A stretch of DNA of 21,775 nucleotides from Saccoglossus kowalevskii (lineage: Eukaryota; Hemichordata; Enteropneusta; Harrimaniidae), in NCBI RefSeq assembly GCF_000003605.2, contig NW_003158749.1, forward strand, positions 113,303 to 135,077, given 5' to 3'. Both the position numbers and the translations under genes were made by a program. Below are positions 1,998-21,600 of this stretch, piece after piece. Positions within the stretch are counted from its first letter, which is position 1. Each line of letters starts with the position of its first letter. The notes beneath the pieces were generated by a model. It did no database searches, was not told the origin of the DNA, and worked only from the letters and a program-made list of their open reading frames with translations.

Positions 1998-3314
1998 ATG
2001 GCGATACAACCTAATTCAAAACAATTTTGGAAGAGTTTGAAATCCAATAGGCCCAATGTGCCAGACAATATATCAGAGGTTGAATGGTTTAACTATTTTA
2101 ATGATTTATGTAACCCACTAACCTTGATGGAGGACGAAAATCAAACAAGAGTTTTCGCATCAATCAAAAACTACATGGATTTATTTAGAAGATAATGTGG
2201 AGTTAAATAACGAATTTAATGTTTCTGAATTTGATAGGCCTATTTCTTTGGATGAAATTAGGGAAAATTTTAGTAAATTAAAGACAAATAAAGCCCCAGG
2301 ACCAGATGGCATACCCACAGAATTTTGGGAAAATGCTCCCATAGAAATCCATGAAATGTTATTTGTTTTATACAACAAGGTATTCGACCAGAGAATCTTT
2401 CCTGATGAATGGGGTAGGGGATTAATATCGCCTGTATACAAGAAGGGAAACAAGGATGAACCCAGTAATTATAGAAGTATTATGTTATTAAACGTCATAA
2501 ATAAAATGTATACAAGTATATTAAGTAATAGGTTAAATACCTGGTTAAAACATTATAATGAAATTGTGGAAGAACAAAGTGGTTTCCAGAAACATAGAAG
2601 CACGTTAGATAATGTTTTCATTTTACGTACTCTTTGCAACAGGGCTCTGTGATTTCACCTCTTTTATTTTGTTTCTACATTAATGATCTTCATAGAACTT
2701 TTCAACAAGGTCATGAAACTGTAGTTTACCTGTGTGCTTTGAAATTGTGTTGCTTATTGTATGCAGATGATCTGGCTCTGTTTAGTAGTACACCTGTTCG
2801 TTTACAACGATTATTGAATAATTTGTCAGACTATTGTTCAAAGTGGAGACTAACAGTGAACCTTAAGAAAACTAAAATTATTGTTTTTCGGAAATGGGGT
2901 AGTTTAAAAAACAGTGAAAAATGGTTTTGGAAGGGTAAAAGCATTGAAACTGTTTCAAAATATAATTATTTGGGGGTTATACTTTCCAGTTCTGGAAAGT
3001 GGTACCAGGCACAAAAATATGTTTCTCAACAGGCTAGTAAAGCACTTTTTTGTTTGGAAAAAAAATTACAGAATCTGGGTGGTGTGCCACGAGATGTTGC
3101 TTTTCGTATTTTTGATTGTAAAATCCTCCAATTTCTCCTCTACGGTAGTGCTATTTGGGGAACACATTCTGATATTAATGATGTGGAGAAAGTACACAAT
3201 AAATTTTGCAAATATTTACTAAGTGTTAGTTTTGTTGCCACTAATTCCGCTGTGGTGGGAGAATTGGGTCGGCATTATCTTAAAGTGTATGTAAATGTTG
3301 AAGTTATTCGTTGA
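1998..3314 (+). pseudogene. LINE reverse transcriptase, motif A deleted
   Basis: Reverse transcriptase remnant. The first block (1998-2195) shifts near 2180 into 2197-2652, which has NKAPGPDGIP, PVYKKGNKDEPSNYRSI and EQSGFQKHRST. The second block (2634-3314) starts abruptly at QQGSVISPLLF (motif B) and continues with LLYADDLALF (catalytic motif C), SKWRLTVNLKKTK (motif D) and YNYLGVIL (motif E). Motif A, with the first catalytic aspartate that should lie between the blocks, is absent. The join sits at about 2630-2640, where the two frames overlap out of register. The protein cannot have been active after this deletion. Confidence 0.88.
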
Positions 3315-6193: not shown

Positions 6194-8202
6194 GTATGTA
6201 GTTATAATTTACGGAGCTTCGTTTAAATTAAGTCACATTGAGAGGTATCTGCCAGGGTTCGGAGGTTCTGTCAGGATTTGAGATGCCTATCTATCAGGGT
6301 TTTGGAATCCCCCGCCCACTTTCAATATTTGAGAGATTTCTATGTCTGTATTTGAACGACTTCGCTAGAAGGGTACCATATTCAAACCAGAAGCGAGCTC
6401 CCCGAACATACTATTTCATTTTTGCATCGTGATCTTGATATCAAACAAAAACAAAAATCACATGAAGAGTGCCCCGTATTATTCTGTATCTTGTGTTTTA
6501 GTCTACTGTCAGGAAATATAAATTATACAAATTGTATTTGACGCAGTACTTTAACTCTAGTGAATATCACTTTAATAAAAACTTCATATTACTTTTCAGA
6601 CGCTTCACAGTATGACACCGTATGTAATCGTGTACCTGGCAATACCGTACAATATCACTTGTTCACGGATGAAATGTTTTGGTTCGATGCTCAGACGTTC
6701 TGTGAAGACAAGTTTGGGGGAATCCTGGCTAGAATTCCAAATAAGGAAACAGACGATCTGATACGGAGCCACATAATTTCTTCTGGTGCCGGCGATGTCA
6801 TTCAAACTGGGTTTTGGATTGGTTACAATGACATCCGAAGCGAAGGCGAATACGAGTGGGCCGGTGGTAAAATCTTGTGTCAAGATTACGTGAACTGGGC
6901 GAGAAAGGAACCAAATAACAATACCAAAAAAAGGACAGAAGGACAGGACTGCGTACAATTAAGGTGAGCGCAATGTAAATCTATTTTCATGCAGTGGTTT
7001 ACTGTTTTCATGTACTGGGGATATACAATGCATCGCAATGAGTTAATACCTTTGTTTCAATTCTGACATCTAAATGACCATTTGAATGAGTTCATCTAAG
7101 CAGGCACTCGTCAGTTGTTGTTTTCTTTACTTTTTTCAGGGATTGTAGATGTAATATATATTTACTTTATATCTAAAATCGCTGTGACTGTTATGTTTCT
7201 CGTGTATTATTCTACATTTTTCAAGAAAATATTATGCCTTCCCTATCAATTTCTTCACAATAGTCATTTTAATCTTCAATGAATGATTTTTTTACAGTCA
7301 CATAACCACATAATGGTTATATCTAAAGTAACATAAATTTGTAATTAGAGTGAATTATGTGCTTTCATAAAATATATAGTTCGATATGGTTTAAAACAAT
7401 TCTACTATGCAAATATTTAGTGTGAATTTTACTTTCTGAAAACTCAACTACATCCTTAAAACAGCATTATGAATAATAAAATAAGTTTTGTTTTATATTA
7501 TAATGCGCAATTGTAATTGGTGTCTTCTCAGGAAAAAGGTTAATTTTCTGTGGGATGACGATTATTGCGACTACAGAGAGAAAGGGTTTATTTGCGAGAC
7601 AGCGGGTAAGGATAACACTTCATGTTATTTCCAATTTTTACTTTCAACAGGCGGGTTCCTTCCATATACGATGGGAACTAAATGTAATCTAACTGCATGT
7701 ATAAACTTCAAAAACCACGAGCTGTGTTTAAACCTCTGTTTCATTAGTTTTAATATTTGAAATGCTGAAAAAAAATATCCTTGTCATACCAAATGCGTAA
7801 AGACACGGTATGTGTTTATGATAATAGCATTTGATCGACTAAACATACATTTTACACTAATATAGGTCTGCGCATGTGTAGCAGAAACATATACATTAAA
7901 ATGCATTTATTTGGTACCACAAAGTTATTTTGGTTTTTATATTAACGATACATACTTATGTCAATTTTATTTATTGTGTATGATTTGGTTTTTTAACTTC
8001 CTAGAAGCAAATCAATATGCAGAAAATATCATATATGTGTAAATATATTTTCGAAAGGCTTTTTACATATCCTGTGTTTCGTATTGGATTGCATTTGATT
8101 CTAATAATGCCGAATATACCCCTAACAAAATATTGAATCATCCTTTCTATCTTAATTTCAGTCTGTGATTCCTTCGACAAATGCAACATCTGTTCCAAGT
8201 AA
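6136..8202 (+). CDS. Secreted C-type lectin (single CTLD), spliced
   Basis: Predicted calcium-dependent carbohydrate-binding protein of 178 residues, secreted. Coding exons are 6136-6193, 6600-6963, 7532-7605 and 8162-8202, joined in phases 1, 2 and 1 by GT-AG introns. The start has A at -3. Residues 1-19 (MNRLVSVILLSSVSPILAQ) look like a signal peptide. The CTLD spans about 28-163: FWIGYND (91-97), YEW (104-106), YVNW...EPN (116-125), C137, LWDDDYC (147-153) and FIC (160-162). Expected disulfides are C54-C162 and C137-C153. EPN usually means mannose/GlcNAc-type binding. However, the WND motif is WDD, and the ligand Glu two residues before C137 is Gln135. C28 lacks its usual partner. The tail adds C167, C173 and C176, which may link subunits. 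A role in pathogen recognition is inferred from the family only. Confidence 0.88.
6600..6963 (+). CDS. Lectin exon 3: main CTLD body
   Basis: The acceptor is ACTTTTCAG at 6591-6599 and the donor is GTGAGC at 6964. It encodes residues 20-140 plus two bases, including WIGYND and EPN. The phase-1 entry and phase-2 exit are confirmed by an uninterrupted frame into the next exon. Confidence 0.9.
7532..7605 (+). CDS. Lectin exon 4: WDD and last CTLD cysteines
   Basis: The acceptor is TCTTCTCAG and the donor is GTAAGG at 7606. It encodes KKVNFLWDDDYCDYREKGFI and CETA, the conserved C-terminal part of a CTLD. If the donor is not used, the frame stays open to about 7760, giving an alternative Cys-containing tail. 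Confidence 0.88.
8162..8202 (+). CDS. Lectin exon 5: short Cys-rich tail
   Basis: A strong acceptor (polypyrimidine tract then TTTCAG) precedes a phase-compatible 13-residue tail VCDSFDKCNICSK and TAA at 8200-8202. It adds three cysteines outside the CTLD. It is supported by phase and acceptor quality, not by homology. Confidence 0.6.
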
Positions 8203-12510: not shown

Positions 12511-12549
12511 ATGTGTTTTAAAAAGCGGACGTGCCCAGCATCGTCATGA
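12511..12549 (+). promoter_or_regulatory. uORF overlapping the channel start (ATGA)
   Basis: A 12-residue upstream [15 protein letters not shown], has a TGA stop that overlaps the main ATG as ATGA (12546-12549). Its own start has a weak context (C at -3), whereas the main start has G at -3. If transcribed, it could reduce translation by a termination and reinitiation or leaky-scanning route. Confidence 0.35.
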
Positions 12550-12830
12550 CCAGGAAGCAAGCACAAATGACCTCAACAGAAGAAGACAAAAAAGACGCCG
12601 CACCGAGCAGTATGGCAGTATTGGAACCCGATTTTAACAACAGTGTGAAGAAGATTACTGATGCCTTCATGAGAAGCACCTCAGTCGCTGGTCTGCCACG
12701 TATATTCGAAGGAAGGGGGACTATAGTATCTTCATTTTGGACTGTAGCTTTCATCCTTGCCATGGCGGCTTCAGTGTGGCAAATAGAAGAATTGGTCGTA
12801 CAATATCTTGCGAGAGATGTTAACGTCAGG
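12546..12830 (+). CDS. Channel exon 1: N-terminus and TM1
   Basis: Residues 1-95. The ATG at 12546 is the first in frame; the frame is open upstream to a GTG at 12531. A charged N-terminus precedes [11 protein letters not shown], aligned with STLHGLAHIF-type sequence of ASICs, then [17 protein letters not shown] (TM1) and VVQYL. The donor is GTAAGG at 12831, phase 0. Confidence 0.85.
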
Positions 12831-15800
12831 GTAAGGCATAGATTTGAAGAGTTTCAAATAGTATACATTGGTGTTGGGACACATGTAAAGTCAAGCAATG
12901 TGTTGAACATATGTACCTGAAGCCACGTACATACCCGTGACAATAATGCCCCATATATATGGTATTCATACTTTTTGTATATATTGATTAAACCACATGT
13001 GCTTTCATAAACCACAATACAGATTTTACTCACAATGGCATACTGTTTATGCATTGACTTTTACACATTGATCCGGGATGTTGACGTATGCATCTCATCA
13101 TCCAATCGAGAATCGGTTTTGATTGACAATTCTAATTAGTAAACAGTTGACAATAAAGTGATCTATTTGTTTTCAAATATGAAGTTTCATTATTTGTTTA
13201 ATTTAATAAAGTTCATCTTTGTCAACATGTTTCTGTTCGCAGATAAAGGTCGTCACAACTCAAGGTTTACCTTTTCCCAGCGTTTCAGTCTGCAACACAA
13301 ATAAATTTCGGAAATCTGCAATATCAATGTCGCCATACTCCAAACTTGTAACTGTTGACACCGAAATAGTACGGTCATATTTTGGTAAGTATCCAATCAT
13401 ATTTAATAATATTTGTGAAGGTTAGTTCAGACCCTAGTTTGACATCAAATATATGTCGTTATTTGCACACTAATTTTCTTTTAATTAATCAATATTAACA
13501 AAGCTAAATAGTGTACATAATTACATGTTTTAATAGTCATCGAATATTCTAATGTATTGAATTACATTACACATATAATTAAACTGCATAAACGGACAAT
13601 ATGCATTAACGTTCAGTTTCGTAATGCGTCTTACACCATTTGAATCATAAAGCGCGTACATATTCTTCAGTCATTATGCAAGACTTGAATAACCCGTATT
13701 TGGAAATTTATATAACTATCACATAAAACTTGTTAATAAAGAAGGTTGTAACAGATGTTTACTTTACATTTTTAATATGTTAATTCACGTATTTGCAGCT
13801 CTTCAGTGTCTTGAAGGGGATTTTCGATGCAATAATAGTGGATGTATCAAGCAATATCTTTTTTGTGATGGCTATGATAATTGTGGCGATAGAAGTGATG
13901 AAGAAAACTGCGACTATGGTGAGTTATATCGACTTGTATTATGTTTCAGTACAGTACTTGGCGTGAGTAAACTGGGCAATATCGAGTACGTGTATACGCT
14001 AAACAATTATGTGAGAATGTTAGCTTATAATATTATTTTATTTCATTTTTCTGGAACTATGACTTGCTACAGGTAGTTGCAGCGTCGATCAATTCAAATG
14101 CACGTCGGGAAGTGACTTGGGAGTTTGTATCGAAAAGAAGTTCAGATGTGATAGAAAATTGGACTGTTATGGGGGAGAAGATGAAGACCACTGCGGTAGG
14201 TTAAACATTGACATGAATTTTAAAATAAACATTTATTTAGTTAGTTATTATTAATGCTATTCAATGTCTGATATTCCCATCAACATTCCATCAAAAATCT
14301 TATTCGTTTCAAATTCATGTAAGGAAGTGTAACTTGTTAAACTGCTACATGGATCAGGGTAGCGTCTACTGACAATTACAAGTTACTGCTTGTATTCCAG
14401 AGTGTATTGATAAGAAAGAATACAAATGTTCGGATACTGGTCGTTGTATCAAGTTATCTAAAAAGTGTAATGGTATAGACGACTGTGCAGATGGTAATGA
14501 TGAAAATAATTGTGAGTCAGGTTTTTTTAGTATCGGATAGCATTTGGAAAATACGTGAATAAGTAACGAATATTGGTGTAAATGCGATGTTATTAATGCA
14601 TCTTGTTCTTATAACTTGCATATCTTGTCGAGAAATAAACTGTCATGTCGACATTACATATACACTCCATTTTTCAGGTACTATATTGTTTCTATAAGTT
14701 TCAATTTATAAATGTATAATAACAAAAAAATCACAACCAATACATGCAGTCGACGTCAACGAGATTAAAGCGTAAAATAAAACAAATGTGCAGTACTTCT
14801 TAAATGTTCATACTCAGGTTTTAACATGGAACACCAATGCCCAGAATATTATTTTCAATGTGATGAAGGACGTGTATGCATCCCTCAGTGGTATCGATGT
14901 GACGGCGATAATGATTGTCAGGACACACTAGATGAAACCGGATGTACAAATCGATCAATCGGTAATTAGTGGTTATTAATTATATCATCAGCATATATCA
15001 GGGTAAAAGTGAATGATTGACCAATTCCGTGTGTGCATTGAAATTAGGTCAAGCAAATCGAGGAACTTGAAACATATGTGTGATATATATTTGTCTAGTT
15101 ACGTAAAGACTACAATAATTCTGACCATAAAATATTACTTCTGGAGTTCCCCGTTGCTATAACGTGCCACTGGCCACTGATGCCAAGATTTGACATAAGC
15201 AATATGTTCTAATTGTAAATTGGCGTTTACTGAATATATAGGTCATGACTGAATGTATATTTTGTTGAATAATATGTTACTATTGTCATGAGAATAAACT
15301 ATGATCATATATTGGGATGATATCAGTAACAACGAGATTGATTGATGACTGTTTTTAGGACCCGGTTAAGACATTTAGTTCAGTTTAACACGACAACATT
15401 ACAAGTAACCTCAGCGCATCCAGAAATATTGTTCTCATAAACATAAGAACTTCCGATGTGAATCTGTACTACTTCCTGTTATACTACTTTTGTTAGTCCT
15501 TTATAACTAAAATATGTACCTCCGAGGTTATTTCTCTAAGTTAAAAGTACTGAAAATGTTTATGTTCTTTTTAAGTTTAGTCGTCTCTTAGTCCGTACAC
15601 AATTATTAAAATCAATCCTAATCATACGGAAATGTATTCAAATATGGTAAAGAATCTATTAATCAAGCACATGATTAATAGAGAGTATGTGTTTACTTAT
15701 GACGATTATAATTGCCGTATTAATTCCAGAATCAAGCAGCACATCAGCTGTAATTGACTCAATACAGTTTTGATATACCCAGGTGCTATATCAGGAAAAT

Positions 15801-18800
15801 CTACGGCTACAATTACCGCTGACCTAACGCACAAGCAACAATAAATTCACTGTGTAAATGTGCGCTGGCGGATACTACTTGACTTACATACATACCAAAT
15901 CACAGCCATGCAGTTAAACTTGATTAGTTTTTATTTTTCTAATACCCATGTGCATTTAGGTATTGTAAGTTCGCATTTGTTTGTTTAATGTTTATATGCA
16001 TGCATATATGCCTGTAGTTTTGATTGGTGGAAACTGATAGACCCACTGATTGACTGACTAACTGACTGACTGACTGATTCGTATAGTTTCATCAGTATTA
16101 CAAATCTCTCACGGAAAATTGTTACCACTGAAATACAATTAAAGAGCAGATGTTATGTCTAGGATTTATACAAATGAGATACATGTAAACCGGACACTTT
16201 GTTTCAGATGTCATCGACTTTACTTGCCATGCAAATGAGTTTAAATGCGAAACGGAGTGTATACCAGATGTTTGGGTTTGTGATGGATTCATTGATTGTC
16301 CATCAGCAGAAGACGAACACTACTGTCACATGACTGTTATTAATGGTACGTCCATCGTTCATAATTCTATTGTAACAACACGCAGTAAATTAATGTAAAT
16401 CAACACAAATAATATGTATAAGTTAAATGTTTTCACAGGGTGCGCTGAACACGAATTTATGTGCGATGTTAGTCAATGTATTCCGAATTCGTGGCTCTGT
16501 GATGGAATTGTCGACTGCTTCGATCAAACCGATGAAATTATATACAATTGTCTCGGAGGTGGGTAATATGCATATAAAGCAATGTTCCGTTTAAGAAAGT
16601 AAATTAGAAAATAAATGTCCTTGATATAAAAGTCTGAAAATTCTATAGAAACGTTTTAAATCAGACCCACAATGCCATAACATCAATCATATATCCGATT
16701 AGGTGATTACATGAGCTATAAATATAAGTTTAGGGGACATTACTATGGTGTAATTTCCGCATCTGTAATTTATTGGGTTCACAGGAATTGGAGAGTGTTT
16801 TTACGATACCAGTGGAACGGATTATCGGGGTTGGACCAACACCACAATCAATGGCAAAGTATGCCAGAATTGGAGTGAGCAGATACCGCACCAGCACTCG
16901 TACACACCTAATAACTACAGTAATCATGGTATTGGGACACATAACTATTGTCGCAATCCAAGTGAATCATCTGCGACGTGGTGTTATACAACAGATCCAA
17001 TGGTGCGCTGGGACTGGTGCGATATTGGCGAACCTGGGGTGAATTGTAGTAAGTGTGATTTGTATATTCCTAGAAACATGGTTATTAGGGTCACTGAATA
17101 ACATCACCGTTGCTTCACCTTAATAGATAATATATACAAATATCTCCTGATCAAAAGTTCACACTTTATTTTTACACATTATATCGTTTGCTCCACTGTC
17201 ATTGAAATAGTCCGTCAGCTTGCTCACGTTCAATCTCCCCTAGCATGCCATCAACCACAGAAGTATTACTAATATTCACTATGCATTATTAATATTCACA
17301 TTTGCTGATTTAGATTTAGACCTTTTCTACCTGTTATTTACGAACCTTAGGCAGATTGCGTTCTTACGTAATATGTTAGTACCTTAAATGAGTTCAATGG
17401 TTTGACATTTTATAAGTTTGAACATTGTATATAGATGGTATTTTAATTGTAATTTTACATTTTTGGCGAATGTAATTTATAATGTTCGGGAATCATTTTT
17501 GTTGACTAAGTCGATAACTGACTTTGACCTTTAATAAGGCTATAATGCCTAATTCCGAGAACTACACTGATACCATGAAACCAAGAAAGACCACGATGAT
17601 ATACATATCTTGTCAATAATTAACACTGTTACATTAACATGTGTAACATGGTGGTTGAAGCGAATATTTACACGATTGTGAAGATGTTAACACAAAGTTA
17701 TGCGCAATTATATTTGTTGTGTAGGAGTGACAGTAATGATTAATCAACTATTAGTAGCAAAATTAACAAATAATAATAAATATATACTGCAAATTACCAA
17801 GCAATCACAAATAGAACAAACATAACTAATTACAATATGAAACTAGATACTGTAACTAATCACATAGGTTAATTGACTCAGGTAAAGTAAATTTAGACTT
17901 GATTATTGTCGGGCACTATAAATAGAGAGGTTAAGGTAGAGATGCAGTTTACCTGAACGGTATTTTAATTAGTTAATTATGAAACCAAGATGAACCCACT
18001 TGTTCACAAAACTATATATTTTCGGAAAGATTATCGTATGAATTTTAAAATTGTGTTATGTTTTATGGACACTGTAGTTTGAAATATGCACAAAAATGTC
18101 CTTTTTTGGTCAAAAGAGATTTAAAAAAATAGCTTCTAAACCATGCTTCTGTTTCCTTTCAAAATTGGTATATGGGGACAGCTGTTTACTATAAAGAAAG
18201 TGCCGTCTTGAAAACTGTCTACCAGTTGTCAATTTTGCAGGGCAGCAGCTCAAATTTCACTATTTCAAGTTTATGCATAAATTAACACACAAGCTAGTTG
18301 TCTGTACGGTTGTTGTAACACTGTTCAACCAAAAACAATGCCCCGACGGCGTTTTGAAGATAAACACATTGTCAATCATTTGTGAAAATTTCAAAACAAA
18401 AGTCTAGGAGCTATTTTTTTTAAAAGTGCTGGGATGTGCACTAAAACGAAGCCGAGATAATTGCTAATTTGCATAACAAATTCACTCAGTAAGACGTTTG
18501 CTAATGCTCATAATTAAAATAGATGTAACAGTTTCAAATTTAAATGTATTATCATTTTGTTAAAAGTTAAATATGGTGCATAATATCCCGTCATTTCGTT
18601 TTTTCACCATGTTTCTTTTTTTTATTATTTATGTACAGCCTTGCTAAATCTTGCTTCAATAGCATTCAAAAGTGAGAATTTTTGCACCTGTTATCTATAT
18701 TTTAAAATCGTTTTTTGAGTATGTTCAACTATTTACAATTCTACAAAATGTTAACAGGCTATAGCCAAGACTGTTTGGATAATAAAGAAGCAAAATAAAA

Positions 18801-21600
18801 ATTCACCACCAAGTGCCACGAACCTGCATCTCTACCTTAATATCTGAACAAAATGGGCTTTGTTGTCTTAATAAGAATGATATATTTATAGAGAGGGCTG
18901 TGCTTAGATTTCATTTGGTTTCAACCAGCGGCTTAGTTGCAAATCATGCTCCGACATCAGAATGATAGATTAATATCTTTTAAGTCAAAAGAAAGCAAAA
19001 CAAATGTATAACTAGATCAACATGTAAATGAATAATCACTAGACATATTATAAATCATAAAGTAAAACCTTTGGTCCAACAATGTGAATATTCTAGTAAA
19101 AAATTATTAATTATTAAAGTAATTATTAAAGTAATTTATTAAGTAATTATTAAAGTAAATAATTAAGTAATCAAGGGCAAATCAGTGAAGTAATTATATA
19201 TGTGGGAGTTATACAACCAATATGTAGTGTCGGGGATTTCGAAAGGAGACATATTTAAAAGGTTTCTGTGAAAAGAAAAACCTGTGTGACATTACTGTTG
19301 TTGGGAACAGATTTCTGTGTTTAACATATTTGGGGATACCGTATGATATTCTTTATCTTACATTACGTCACTATAGTTTATAGCCTATCACGTTAATGTA
19401 ACTTGAGATTGCCCGCCAGAATGTAAACTTGTCACATGTGTGAGTCAAGGCTAACACGAGGCAGTAGTAGACCACGGAATAAAGTAGTCGTGTTTTTCAA
19501 CTCGAAGTAACTGACTTGTTATCTGATTCAGTAAAAGATCCTATACCCCACAACTGATGCCATCTGATATCATACGTGTCACAATCTGTGTCGCAACATA
19601 ACTGTCAAACATGCTTTGATAGATGGATATGCACTGAAATACAGACCTACTGAGTTCGGGTGCAACTAATCAATTCAATGCATTGTATATTACACTCGAT
19701 ACATATTCAAATATAAGCTCCGATAAGTACAGCATTTAGAAAGGCATTTCGACTGGGTTTTGCGTAATGATTGGTTAGTTGTCCCGAGTGAGAATTCACA
19801 TATTACACTATTGGCATTTATATAAGCACTACCTTTTATTTCAGACAATACTGGCGATGATTGCACTGACTCTGAATTCAGCTGCGACGATGTATGTATA
19901 CCAACATTGTTTCTCTGTGATGGTTTTATGCACTGTTCATCGGGAATCGATGAGGATAACTGCGACATGAAAACAAATAATAGTATGTTTATAAAATTCC
20001 GTTATTATATTTTAGTGTGTTATGCTATCGTCACATTGTCGTGGACTGGTGTATTAGCATTCTTATTCAAAATTTCAAATCACCCATAAATACAATGTGA
20101 AATGGCACGAAAATTCGCACTTAATGATTACATTAATGATTACATATTATTCATTGTAGGCGGGGAATGTTTTTACGGTGTTAATGGTGAGGACTACAGA
20201 GGAACAAAGAATTACACTATGAAAGGCAAGCCTTGCCAGAAATGGACTGAGCAAACACCACATGCACATACATACACCGAACAATTTTTCAATGCCAGTG
20301 GTTTTGGAGATCATAACTATTGTCGTAATACAGGTCGCGATCAAGCAACGTGGTGTTTCACTACTGACCCGGCAGTACGTTGGCAGTGGTGTTCTATTGG
20401 TGAACCAGAATTAAACTGTGGTGTGTATTACAGTTTACATTAATTGTTCTTCTTATTATGTGTACTAATCTGATATGATTGTGTAATAACAATTTCATCG
20501 ATTGGCCAAATCTCATTCACTCCAGTGGTACACAGCCACAGTCGCACTGGCAGGTTCTGGTTGAGTTATGTATATCTTATTAAGTTCGTAACATACTGGT
20601 TATACAAAACATGTCAGCAACAAAAAAATGCCACACATGTGGGGTAAAAAGCATAACAAAACAAACGCAAATGAAAAGAGCTTTCATCAGAAAAACCGCG
20701 TGACATGGAGACGGTAGTCCCGGGTAGATCTTCGGCATAATTGAAAGTAGATTTCATGTCGCCTGTGTACTATTTTTAGCTAGTTGTACTAAGTCGGTAA
20801 TGTATTTTCTTAAATAACTGCTAAAATAATTACGTAACAAAACAAGCAAGGATTACCCATCCTAACAGAAATTTGAGCAATACATGTTTTTCAAACACAT
20901 GAATCGTCTATTGTTGTATTAATGTTGTTAATTTTTTCGTTAATTGGAAAATGAAGGTTCTTACATCTAATTAAATAACATGTTGACATGTACCGCGATA
21001 TATGTATCTATTTACCTGGATTAAATTAACGTGCAATTAAACAGCCAGCATGTAATAATAGTATTTAGAATGTTCGTTATGCCTATCACATTGGCACATT
21101 CATTTGTAATTCTAGATTAATTGTATAATCCGCTTTTAAAACAAAGCAACAAATCCTTTGGCAGTAATCAGAATATGCAATAACATTTAATCATGATATG
21201 CTGCTACGTCATCAGATGTTTCCAATGTTTTAATAAACTTTAAACTCGATCTCGTAATTGTAATTATTAACGTCAACTTTCTGTTAATATTATGATATGT
21301 TGCATTATTTGTTCATCCTTATACTATAGTCATTGTTATTATAGTCAGCAATTTTCTTCGAAAAATTCAGTTCATCTGCAAATGAAAAATGGTATATTTA
21401 ACACATTAAGGTGGAATATGCATAACTCACGTCCTCAATGTAACAACTATAATAAACATATGTTATCGTCACACTAATAGGTGGTCTTTGCGAGGGCACA
21501 AATTTCGAATGCAGTGACTCTTTTTGCATTCCTGGTTATTGGCTCTGTGATGGCATTAATGATTGCTCAGATGGGGAAGATGAAATAGGATGTGAAAATA
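12546..21600 (+). CDS. DEG/ENaC subunit with LDLa-kringle ectodomain, 3' incomplete
   Basis: Twelve exons give 655 continuous codons: 12546-12830, 13243-13384, 13799-13918, 14073-14195, 14401-14511, 14818-14961, 16208-16345, 16439-16558, 16785-17048, 19845-19982, 20160-20420 and 21481-21600. Residues 1-57 are cytosolic, with AGLPRIF (48-54) in the place of the HG-motif block. TM1 is about 58-80. [20 protein letters not shown] (96-115) matches the first extracellular strand of DEG/ENaC (FPxVxxCN). Then follow LDLa1 146-180, LDLa2 185-223, LDLa3 225-261, LDLa4 268-303, LDLa5 315-348, LDLa6 356-392, kringle1 399-482, LDLa7 489-522, kringle2 532-615 and LDLa8 619-653. Family knowledge: DEG/ENaCs are trimeric amiloride-sensitive cation channels gated by ligands, acid or force. 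TM2, the Cys-rich finger domains and the GxS filter are not in the window, so the channel nature of the whole protein is inferred. Confidence 0.87.
13243..13384 (+). CDS. Channel exon 2: first extracellular strand
   Basis: Residues 96-142 plus one base. It contains FPSVSVCN followed by NKFRKSA, the standard palm-domain entry of DEG/ENaC with its conserved Cys (C112). Acceptor TTCGCAG, donor GTAAGT at 13385, phase 1. This is the last exon with channel homology in the window. Confidence 0.87.
13799..13918 (+). CDS. Channel exon 3: LDLa1
   Basis: CLEGDFRC...GC...[17 protein letters not shown] has six Cys and all acidic calcium ligands. Acceptor TTTGCAG, donor GTGAGT, symmetric phase 1. Confidence 0.93.
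14073..14195 (+). CDS. Channel exon 4: LDLa2
   Basis: Six Cys with a longer second loop (TSGSDLGVC). CDRKLDC...EDEDHC keeps the calcium ligands. The conserved Gly after CD is Arg. Symmetric phase 1. Confidence 0.92.
14401..14511 (+). CDS. Channel exon 5: LDLa3
   Basis: CIDKKEYKC...[15 protein letters not shown]. The sixth Cys is created only by splicing, from T at 14511 and GT at 14818. Symmetric phase 1. Confidence 0.9.
14818..14961 (+). CDS. Channel exon 6: LDLa4
   Basis: It opens with the Cys that closes LDLa3, then a six-residue linker and CPEYYFQC...[16 protein letters not shown]. An N-glycosylation sequon NRS follows in the linker. Donor GTAATT (weaker), phase 1. Confidence 0.92.
14962..16207 (+). 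other. Intron 6 of the channel gene
   Basis: 1246 bases with no LDLa, kringle or channel-like exon that I can find. It contains the GACT microsatellite and a phase-compatible but weak acceptor near 15780 leading to a stop after about 20 codons. Confidence 0.6.
16045..16079. repeat. (GACT)n microsatellite
   Basis: About eight imperfect ACTG units, interrupted by a few substitutions, inside intron 6. Confidence 0.8.
16208..16345 (+). CDS. Channel exon 7: LDLa5
   Basis: [14 protein letters not shown]...[16 protein letters not shown], complete ligand set. Acceptor TTTCAG, donor GTACGT, symmetric phase 1. It follows a 1246-base intron. Confidence 0.92.
16439..16558 (+). CDS. Channel exon 8: LDLa6
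   Basis: CAEHEFMC...[20 protein letters not shown], with the last loop lengthened (IIYNC). The preceding intron is only 93 bases. Symmetric phase 1. Confidence 0.93.
16785..17048 (+). CDS. Channel exon 9: kringle 1
   Basis: A full kringle on one exon with Cys at residues 399, 421, 450, 461, 473 and 482. Hallmarks are ECFY, DYRGW, CQNW, HNYCRNP, WCYTTDP and RWDWCDI. The Asp-x-Asp lysine-binding centre is replaced (NPSESSATW). Symmetric phase 1. Confidence 0.95.
17049..17930 (+). other. Intron 9 of the channel gene, left part
   Basis: No exon seen. It is AT-rich and ends where the MITE-like element begins. Confidence 0.5.
17931..18840. mobile_element. MITE-like element, 17-bp TIRs with TTAA ends
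   Basis: The left end TTAAGGTAGAGATGCAG (17931-17947) is an exact reverse complement of the right end (18824-18840). The outermost TTAA on both sides could be a target-site duplication, as made by piggyBac-type transposases, although GGTAGAG is not a usual piggyBac terminus. The element is 910 bases and has no coding capacity. A further internal inverted pair (about 18119-18140 and 18403-18425, around AAAAAAATAGCT) suggests folding potential. It lies in intron 9. The class is inferred; non-autonomous DNA transposon is the best call. Confidence 0.72.
18841..19844 (+). other. Intron 9 of the channel gene, right part
   Basis: No exon seen. It includes the AT-rich simple repeat and ends in a good pyrimidine tract before TTTCAG at 19844. 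Confidence 0.5.
19101..19171. repeat. AT-rich simple repeat (ATTAAAGTA-type)
   Basis: Repeated ATTATTAAAGTA and AATTAAGTA units in an irregular array of about 70 bases. Confidence 0.7.
19845..19982 (+). CDS. Channel exon 10: LDLa7
   Basis: CTDSEFSC...[23 protein letters not shown]. The usual Asp before the fifth Cys is His, so one calcium ligand is lost. It follows the longest intron (2796 bases). Symmetric phase 1. Confidence 0.92.
20160..20420 (+). CDS. Channel exon 11: kringle 2
   Basis: Six kringle Cys at residues 532, 554, 583, 594, 606 and 615, with ECFYG, DYRG, CQKW, HNYCRN, WCFTTDP and RWQWCSI. By hand, about 50 of 87 positions are identical to kringle 1. Symmetric phase 1. Confidence 0.95.
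20421..21480 (+). other. Intron 11 of the channel gene
   Basis: 1060 bases. No further module exon is recognisable, and the 61-codon open frame near its end has no domain. Confidence 0.55.
21481..21600 (+). CDS. Channel exon 12: LDLa8
   Basis: CEGTNFEC...[23 protein letters not shown], complete ligand set. Acceptor CTAATAG, donor GTAAGT at 21601, phase 1, so the gene must continue beyond the window. Confidence 0.93.

Follow-up and report, generated by a model that had tools for sequence, protein, structure and literature searches.

A DEG/ENaC gene model of Saccoglossus kowalevskii with a predicted LDLa and kringle arm in its finger domain

The window described here is a stretch of 21,775 nucleotides from the hemichordate Saccoglossus kowalevskii, bases 113303-135077 of contig C4796 (NW_003158749.1) in an assembly of 572 Mb and 4830 contigs. 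It contains the first 12 exons of gene A, a DEG/ENaC-type gene in which LDLa and kringle modules interrupt the channel ectodomain. The spliced model of gene A has 24 exons, runs from window position 12546 to 33686, past the window's end, and encodes 1133 amino acids up to a TAA stop with consistent splice phases; one short downstream exon was placed by splice phase. The encoded order is a DEG/ENaC start, ten LDLa-type repeats and two kringles, the rest of the DEG/ENaC ectodomain, a second transmembrane segment (TM2) and the stop (Table 1). Every junction of the 12 exons inside the window (12546-12830 to 21481-21600) is GT/AG and the reading frame is unbroken. Beyond it, two LDLa-type repeats with four cysteines are followed by the remaining channel, with TM2 (GGILGLYCGFCVITIVE) and the segments of finger, thumb and palm encoded by exons 15-24. 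The contig reads as N for 3875 bases directly after the window and for 3494 bases directly before it. Exon 5 has a weaker alternative donor, of the same phase, 9 bases further downstream.

Table 1. Exons of gene A, in window positions unless a contig is named (TM1, first transmembrane segment)
Feature	Position	Strand	Evidence
Exon 1: cytosolic N-terminus and TM1, AG for HG, phase 0 out	12546..12830	+	ATG, donor GTAAGG, ASC match, ASIC1/ENaC alpha alignment
Exon 2: FPSVSVCN and finger helix alpha1 region, phase 1 end = insertion point	13243..13384	+	AG/GT, PDB alignment
Exon 3: LDLa 1, phase 1-1	13799..13918	+	
Exon 4: LDLa 2, phase 1-1	14073..14195	+	
Exon 5: LDLa 3, phase 1-1	14401..14511	+	
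Exon 6: LDLa 4, phase 1-1	14818..14961	+	
Exon 7: LDLa 5, phase 1-1	16208..16345	+	
Exon 8: LDLa 6, phase 1-1	16439..16558	+	
Exon 9: whole kringle 1, phase 1-1	16785..17048	+	Pfam kringle
Exon 10: LDLa 7, phase 1-1	19845..19982	+	
Exon 11: whole kringle 2, phase 1-1	20160..20420	+	Pfam kringle
Exon 12: LDLa 8, phase 1-1	21481..21600	+	
Exons 13-24: two four-Cys LDLa-type repeats, finger/thumb/palm, TM2 with GFC, stop	C4796 140202-146988	+	

A preliminary description of the window had proposed that exons 1-2 encode a DEG/ENaC start (TM1 plus FPSVSVCN), followed without a frame break by six LDLa repeats, a kringle, an LDLa, a kringle and another LDLa. Translation and a Pfam ASC match confirm the start, and the module series, in that order, holds across the spliced exons with Pfam LDLa and kringle matches. 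FPxVxxCN is a DEG/ENaC motif found after TM1, and FPSVSVCN in exon 2 fits it. In the spliced protein Pfam recognizes ASC in two stretches (1.1e-77), LDLa in eight (1.5e-70) and kringle in two (1.4e-37), the kringle (PF00051) score being 128.3 bits against a cut-off of 34.3. When exons 3-14 are removed, ASC (PF00858) becomes a single stretch covering 1-454 of 455 model positions (302 bits, 8.4e-90). The protein has two hydrophobic peaks, at 59-77 and 1092-1110, and 17 cysteines outside the insert. The downstream sequence had been named as the place to look for the Cys-rich domains, the GxS filter and TM2 of a channel; the first and the last are there, but GFC stands where DEG/ENaC proteins usually have GxS. 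Similarly, the N-terminus has AG where HG is usual, and both departures are shared by a neighboring copy, B. GxS and HG are common DEG/ENaC signature residues that do not define the Pfam ASC family. Because the Cys-rich domains and TM2 lie in frame and ASC is matched almost end to end, the gene model supports a complete DEG/ENaC (ASC-fold) channel subunit with two transmembrane segments. The suggestion of an ion channel carrying a large ectodomain arm is thus upheld at gene-model level, with ectodomain, TM2 and stop all found 3′ in frame. The alternative offered alongside it, a single-pass protein that borrowed the channel's start alone, is rejected at the same level, since the complete channel follows the modules in frame.

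The insert comprises 587 residues, among them 68 cysteines (an even number), 111 acidic residues and 38 basic ones. An acidic LDLa core pattern is matched by all ten repeats of gene A and by nine of the ten in copy B. LDLa (PF00057) is a six-cysteine module; the repeats of exons 13-14 have four cysteines only and keep the acidic core. This variant, two cysteines fewer with the core kept, occurs in each of the five genes whose sequence was read.

Among solved structures, the channel part of gene A scores highest with ENaC alpha (173 bits), followed by ASIC1 (168 bits). Each alignment is interrupted, from chain residue 109 to 163 in ASIC1 and from 143 to 272 in ENaC alpha, which places the insert between finger helices alpha1 and alpha2, at the location of GRIP. 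Available excerpts of published work describe the GRIP domain of ENaC between these helices (PMC6197857). Excerpts of the FaNaC1 paper describe the outer corner of the finger as divergent in sequence across DEG/ENaC channels and apparently important for gating throughout the superfamily, with ion and protease sites in ENaC and a proposed tethering to matrix (PMC11026163). ENaC (PDB 6wth), the best solved match, resembles gene A in having, in the material available, an extra domain between alpha1 and alpha2; in ENaC, however, that piece is the protease-sensitive GRIP, whereas gene A has a stretch of 587 residues made up of LDLa and kringle modules, accompanied by GFC and AG. ASIC1 shares the fold by sequence and the domain order (E 3.6e-48) but, in the alignments and the excerpts available, is without the module insert and has GAS and HG intact. 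FaNaC, an FMRFamide-gated sodium channel of the same superfamily (136 bits), has its ligand site at the finger corner; unlike the arm of gene A, this site is a small-peptide pocket, and the accessible part of the FaNaC1 paper does not mention LDLa or kringle (PMC11026163).

Kringle 1 of gene A matches plasminogen, and within that chain the fourth kringle matches best (82 bits). In plasminogen, apolipoprotein(a) and HGF, kringles are part of secreted proteins, whereas those of gene A occupy one exon each inside a membrane channel gene. We found no description of a DEG/ENaC subunit with an LDLa/kringle arm in the open-access literature, in a search that may have missed some spellings of DEG/ENaC. 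The available portion of a DEG/ENaC review contains no mention of kringle, LDL or lipoprotein (PMC10148893), and the part of the main text available for a phylogeny of the family contains none of kringle or LDL (PMC10507113). Excerpts of the same phylogeny list groups of uncharacterized DEG/ENaC channels with ambulacrarian members (PMC10507113).

Gene A has relatives that keep its layout, and sequence was read for five genes in all: A, B, C, D and a gene on contig C3821. Copy B is a tandem copy about 36 kb upstream of gene A (C4796 89410-107665), in which every one of the 24 exons has a counterpart, in unchanged order and with 50-100% identity over the aligned part. Exon 2 of gene A is 96% identical to its counterpart there, and the exon 2-exon 3 junction is conserved. 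Copies C and D, on the minus strand of contig C3229, run in the order TM1, modules, channel, TM2, with 13 LDLa matches each (one partial in D) and two whole kringles each; a third kringle was matched in two separate pieces in C and in a single piece in D. The C3821 gene follows the same order with 11 LDLa matches, and no kringle was matched in it by the home-made profiles used for the module census. These profiles served for C, D and the C3821 gene and were built partly from the same repeats, and runs of N in C3229 and C3821 may conceal modules. In all three genes TM2 carries GLS and the N-terminus HG. The recurrence of the exon order in copy B and, with different module counts, in C and D is more than would be expected by chance.

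A search of the assembly suggests that LDLa repeats accompany many more DEG/ENaC genes. The best 93 of 217 ASC candidates were scored, a lower bound that missed gene A, together with the best 150 of 1658 LDLa candidates, of which 124 matches were kept after removal of 26 that belong to one array. Forty of the 124 lie within 30 kb of a listed ASC piece, compared to 0.75 expected under an even spread. Among these 40, 36 are on the same strand as the nearest piece and in the order TM1, LDLa, channel; three of the four that break the order come from gene A, whose own ASC pieces are unlisted, and the fourth is C3545:952. At least 18 of 48 ASC contigs have LDLa in this order beside ASC pieces. The LDLa genes on C603, C4507, C2855, C958 and others are known from match coordinates alone. 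DEG/ENaC exons that cross the insertion point uninterrupted also occur, as six matches on C2355 and C3473 (approximately model positions 15-236), one of which holds two stop codons. The array set aside, at C4670 35786-41390, is a long run of LDLa with 26 of the 150 scored matches, 25 of them in one open frame of 1735 residues.

Kringles are distributed more narrowly. Among the 86 kringle matches listed, those near listed ASC pieces are on C4796 and C3229 only; C4124 has both kringle and ASC matches, more than 500 kb apart. The listed matches do not support the idea that DEG/ENaC genes in this genome generally carry kringles. At two further loci, C2352 170524-175026 and C2729 109603-114064, kringle and LDLa matches lie close together with no listed ASC piece. 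It is possible that these loci are relatives or donors of the module set.

The structure of the module exons bears on how the arm arose. In gene A, 12 of the 12 module exons are of phase 1-1, and the end of exon 2 and the start of exon 15 are likewise in phase 1; splicing of exon 2 directly to exon 15 would thus keep the frame. Of the 44 module matches in C, D and the C3821 gene, 39 were tested under a permissive splice-site rule; 37 fit phase 1-1, and no acceptor was found for the remaining two. Phase 1-1 module exons between phase-1 boundaries fit exon shuffling, and the arm looks as if it was built by shuffling such exons into a phase-1 intron. We also compared A with B using our own Nei-Gojobori script, with exon 6 of B used after a frame change. 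The ratio of nonsynonymous to synonymous substitution (dN/dS) is 0.27 for the LDLa exons, 0.15 for exons 13-14, 0.26 for the kringles and 0.16 for channel exons 15-24, the most constrained of the large blocks. Judged by these ratios, amino-acid change is selected against in both modules and channel.

The gene anatomy, the complete channel, the position of the insert and the copies that keep the layout can be read directly from the DNA. We interpret gene A as probably encoding a DEG/ENaC subunit whose 587-residue LDLa/kringle finger arm modulates gating by binding a macromolecule outside the cell. LDLa repeats bind Ca2+ and grip basic ligands. Given this behavior, the excess of acidic over basic residues and the acidic cores suggest an acidic, Ca2+-binding arm that would grip basic ligands, and ligand capture by the arm is plausible. 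The subunit would assemble as a trimer, with up to three arms projecting from the channel's outer corner. Ca2+-loaded LDLa repeats would hold basic patches on the macromolecule and the kringles would add protein contacts. Binding to the arm, or pull on it, could then shift finger and thumb at the position that GRIP has in ENaC, altering channel opening. AG and GFC, the pore motifs of the A/B pair, may indicate a change in selectivity or gating, possibly exerted together with C/D-type subunits.

Several observations weigh against this interpretation. The evidence for gene A is a gene model at the DNA level. A and B depart from both GxS and HG, and conductance is accordingly not assured; available text of the DEG/ENaC review places the HG motif and the GAS belt near each other and calls both highly conserved (PMC10148893). 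The dN/dS of exons 1-2 between A and B is 0.67, with low synonymous divergence. Of the short channel exons, 18, 20 and 22 had no match in C or D at E 0.01, and exons 21 and 22 had none in the C3821 gene at E 1. Lysine-binding kringles carry Asp-x-Asp/Glu at the lysine site, which not all kringles have. At the corresponding position kringle 1 of gene A has SES, with the acidic pair absent, and kringle 2 keeps part of the pair; DNE is retained in the first kringle of both C and D. Exon 6 of copy B (C4796 89410-107665) requires either a one-base frame change or a different donor. This inconsistency means that copy B may be damaged or misassembled; polymorphism is another possible cause.

Other explanations of the locus make different use of the same evidence. 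With gene A read from DNA alone and a 3875-base stretch of N just past the window, its parts could belong to two or three neighboring genes, or to an assembly chimera. However, the same order is kept in copy B, where an intron of 229 bases corresponds to that stretch, as well as in C, D and the C3821 gene, which disfavors this explanation; the phases match at both joins, and the channel is complete only when the parts are joined. We regard separate genes or a chimera as exceedingly improbable. A non-conducting subunit, whose channel part merely anchors the receptor arm or acts as a silent partner, would suit the GFC and AG of A and B, but the strong constraint on exons 15-24, the retention of the TM2 exon, and GLS and HG in C, D and the C3821 gene make such a decoy or scaffold distinctly unlikely.

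The arm might instead act through force or proteolysis. Matrix proteins and glycans are common ligands of LDLa and kringle arrays, which counts in favor of a mechanical tether, an arm that would anchor the channel to extracellular matrix or a neighboring cell and transmit force to the finger, in line with proposals for degenerins. The insert lies at the corner for which excerpts of the FaNaC1 paper mention a proposed attachment to matrix (PMC11026163), and the available part of the DEG/ENaC review describes the tethering model (PMC10148893). The number of LDLa-type repeats, however, varies across A, B, C, D and the C3821 gene (10, 10, 13, 13 and 11), and varying module number is no less consistent with recognition of varied ligands than with a tether, which we consider unlikely. 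LDLa or kringle modules are also present in proteases that act on ENaC, and the arm occupies the GRIP position between alpha1 and alpha2, as would an oversized stand-in for GRIP that docks a serine protease or is cut to relieve inhibition. Accessible portions of the literature on TMPRSS3 and TMPRSS4 mention both ENaC and LDLa. Yet neither A nor B has a furin-type RxK/RR site, and the RxxR sites of the insert, of which A has one and B two, all fall within LDLa or kringle modules, so that a gate controlled by proteases appears quite improbable.

Other features were noted in the window and elsewhere in the assembly. Upstream of the channel gene, at window positions 2128-3314, overlapping open reading frames match reverse transcriptase (RVT_1; 8.9e-19 for 2613-3314, and 7.3e-06, below the cut-off, for 2128-2652), apparently a retroelement split between frames. 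An open frame at 6542-6967 contains a C-type lectin domain (Lectin_C, 2.3e-11) and presumably represents a separate gene between copies B and A. Contig C4830 (17 kb) is mitochondrial; COX1 and ND6 lie on the strand opposite to the other recognized genes, and its ATA codons aligned to Ile in five of nine places and to Met in one of nine. Together with the order of the mitochondrial genes and a COX1 whose closest chains are probably mammalian, these codons point tentatively to a deuterostome, perhaps a hemichordate.

If the binding-arm interpretation of gene A is true, evolution would have fused an ion channel to the kind of ligand-binding modules found in lipoprotein receptors and plasminogen. 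The genes described here would then be a natural family with well-understood binding modules placed at the gating corner, in several copies whose module sets differ. In such a family, exchange or deletion of the arm would make it possible to test how the finger corner converts protons, peptides, proteases or force into channel opening. It is possible, if somewhat short of probable, that they represent a class of receptor-channels in which an LDLa/kringle arm on the DEG/ENaC finger senses large molecules or matrix, spread over many genes that vary in their module sets within one animal lineage, with the pore re-shaped in the A/B pair.

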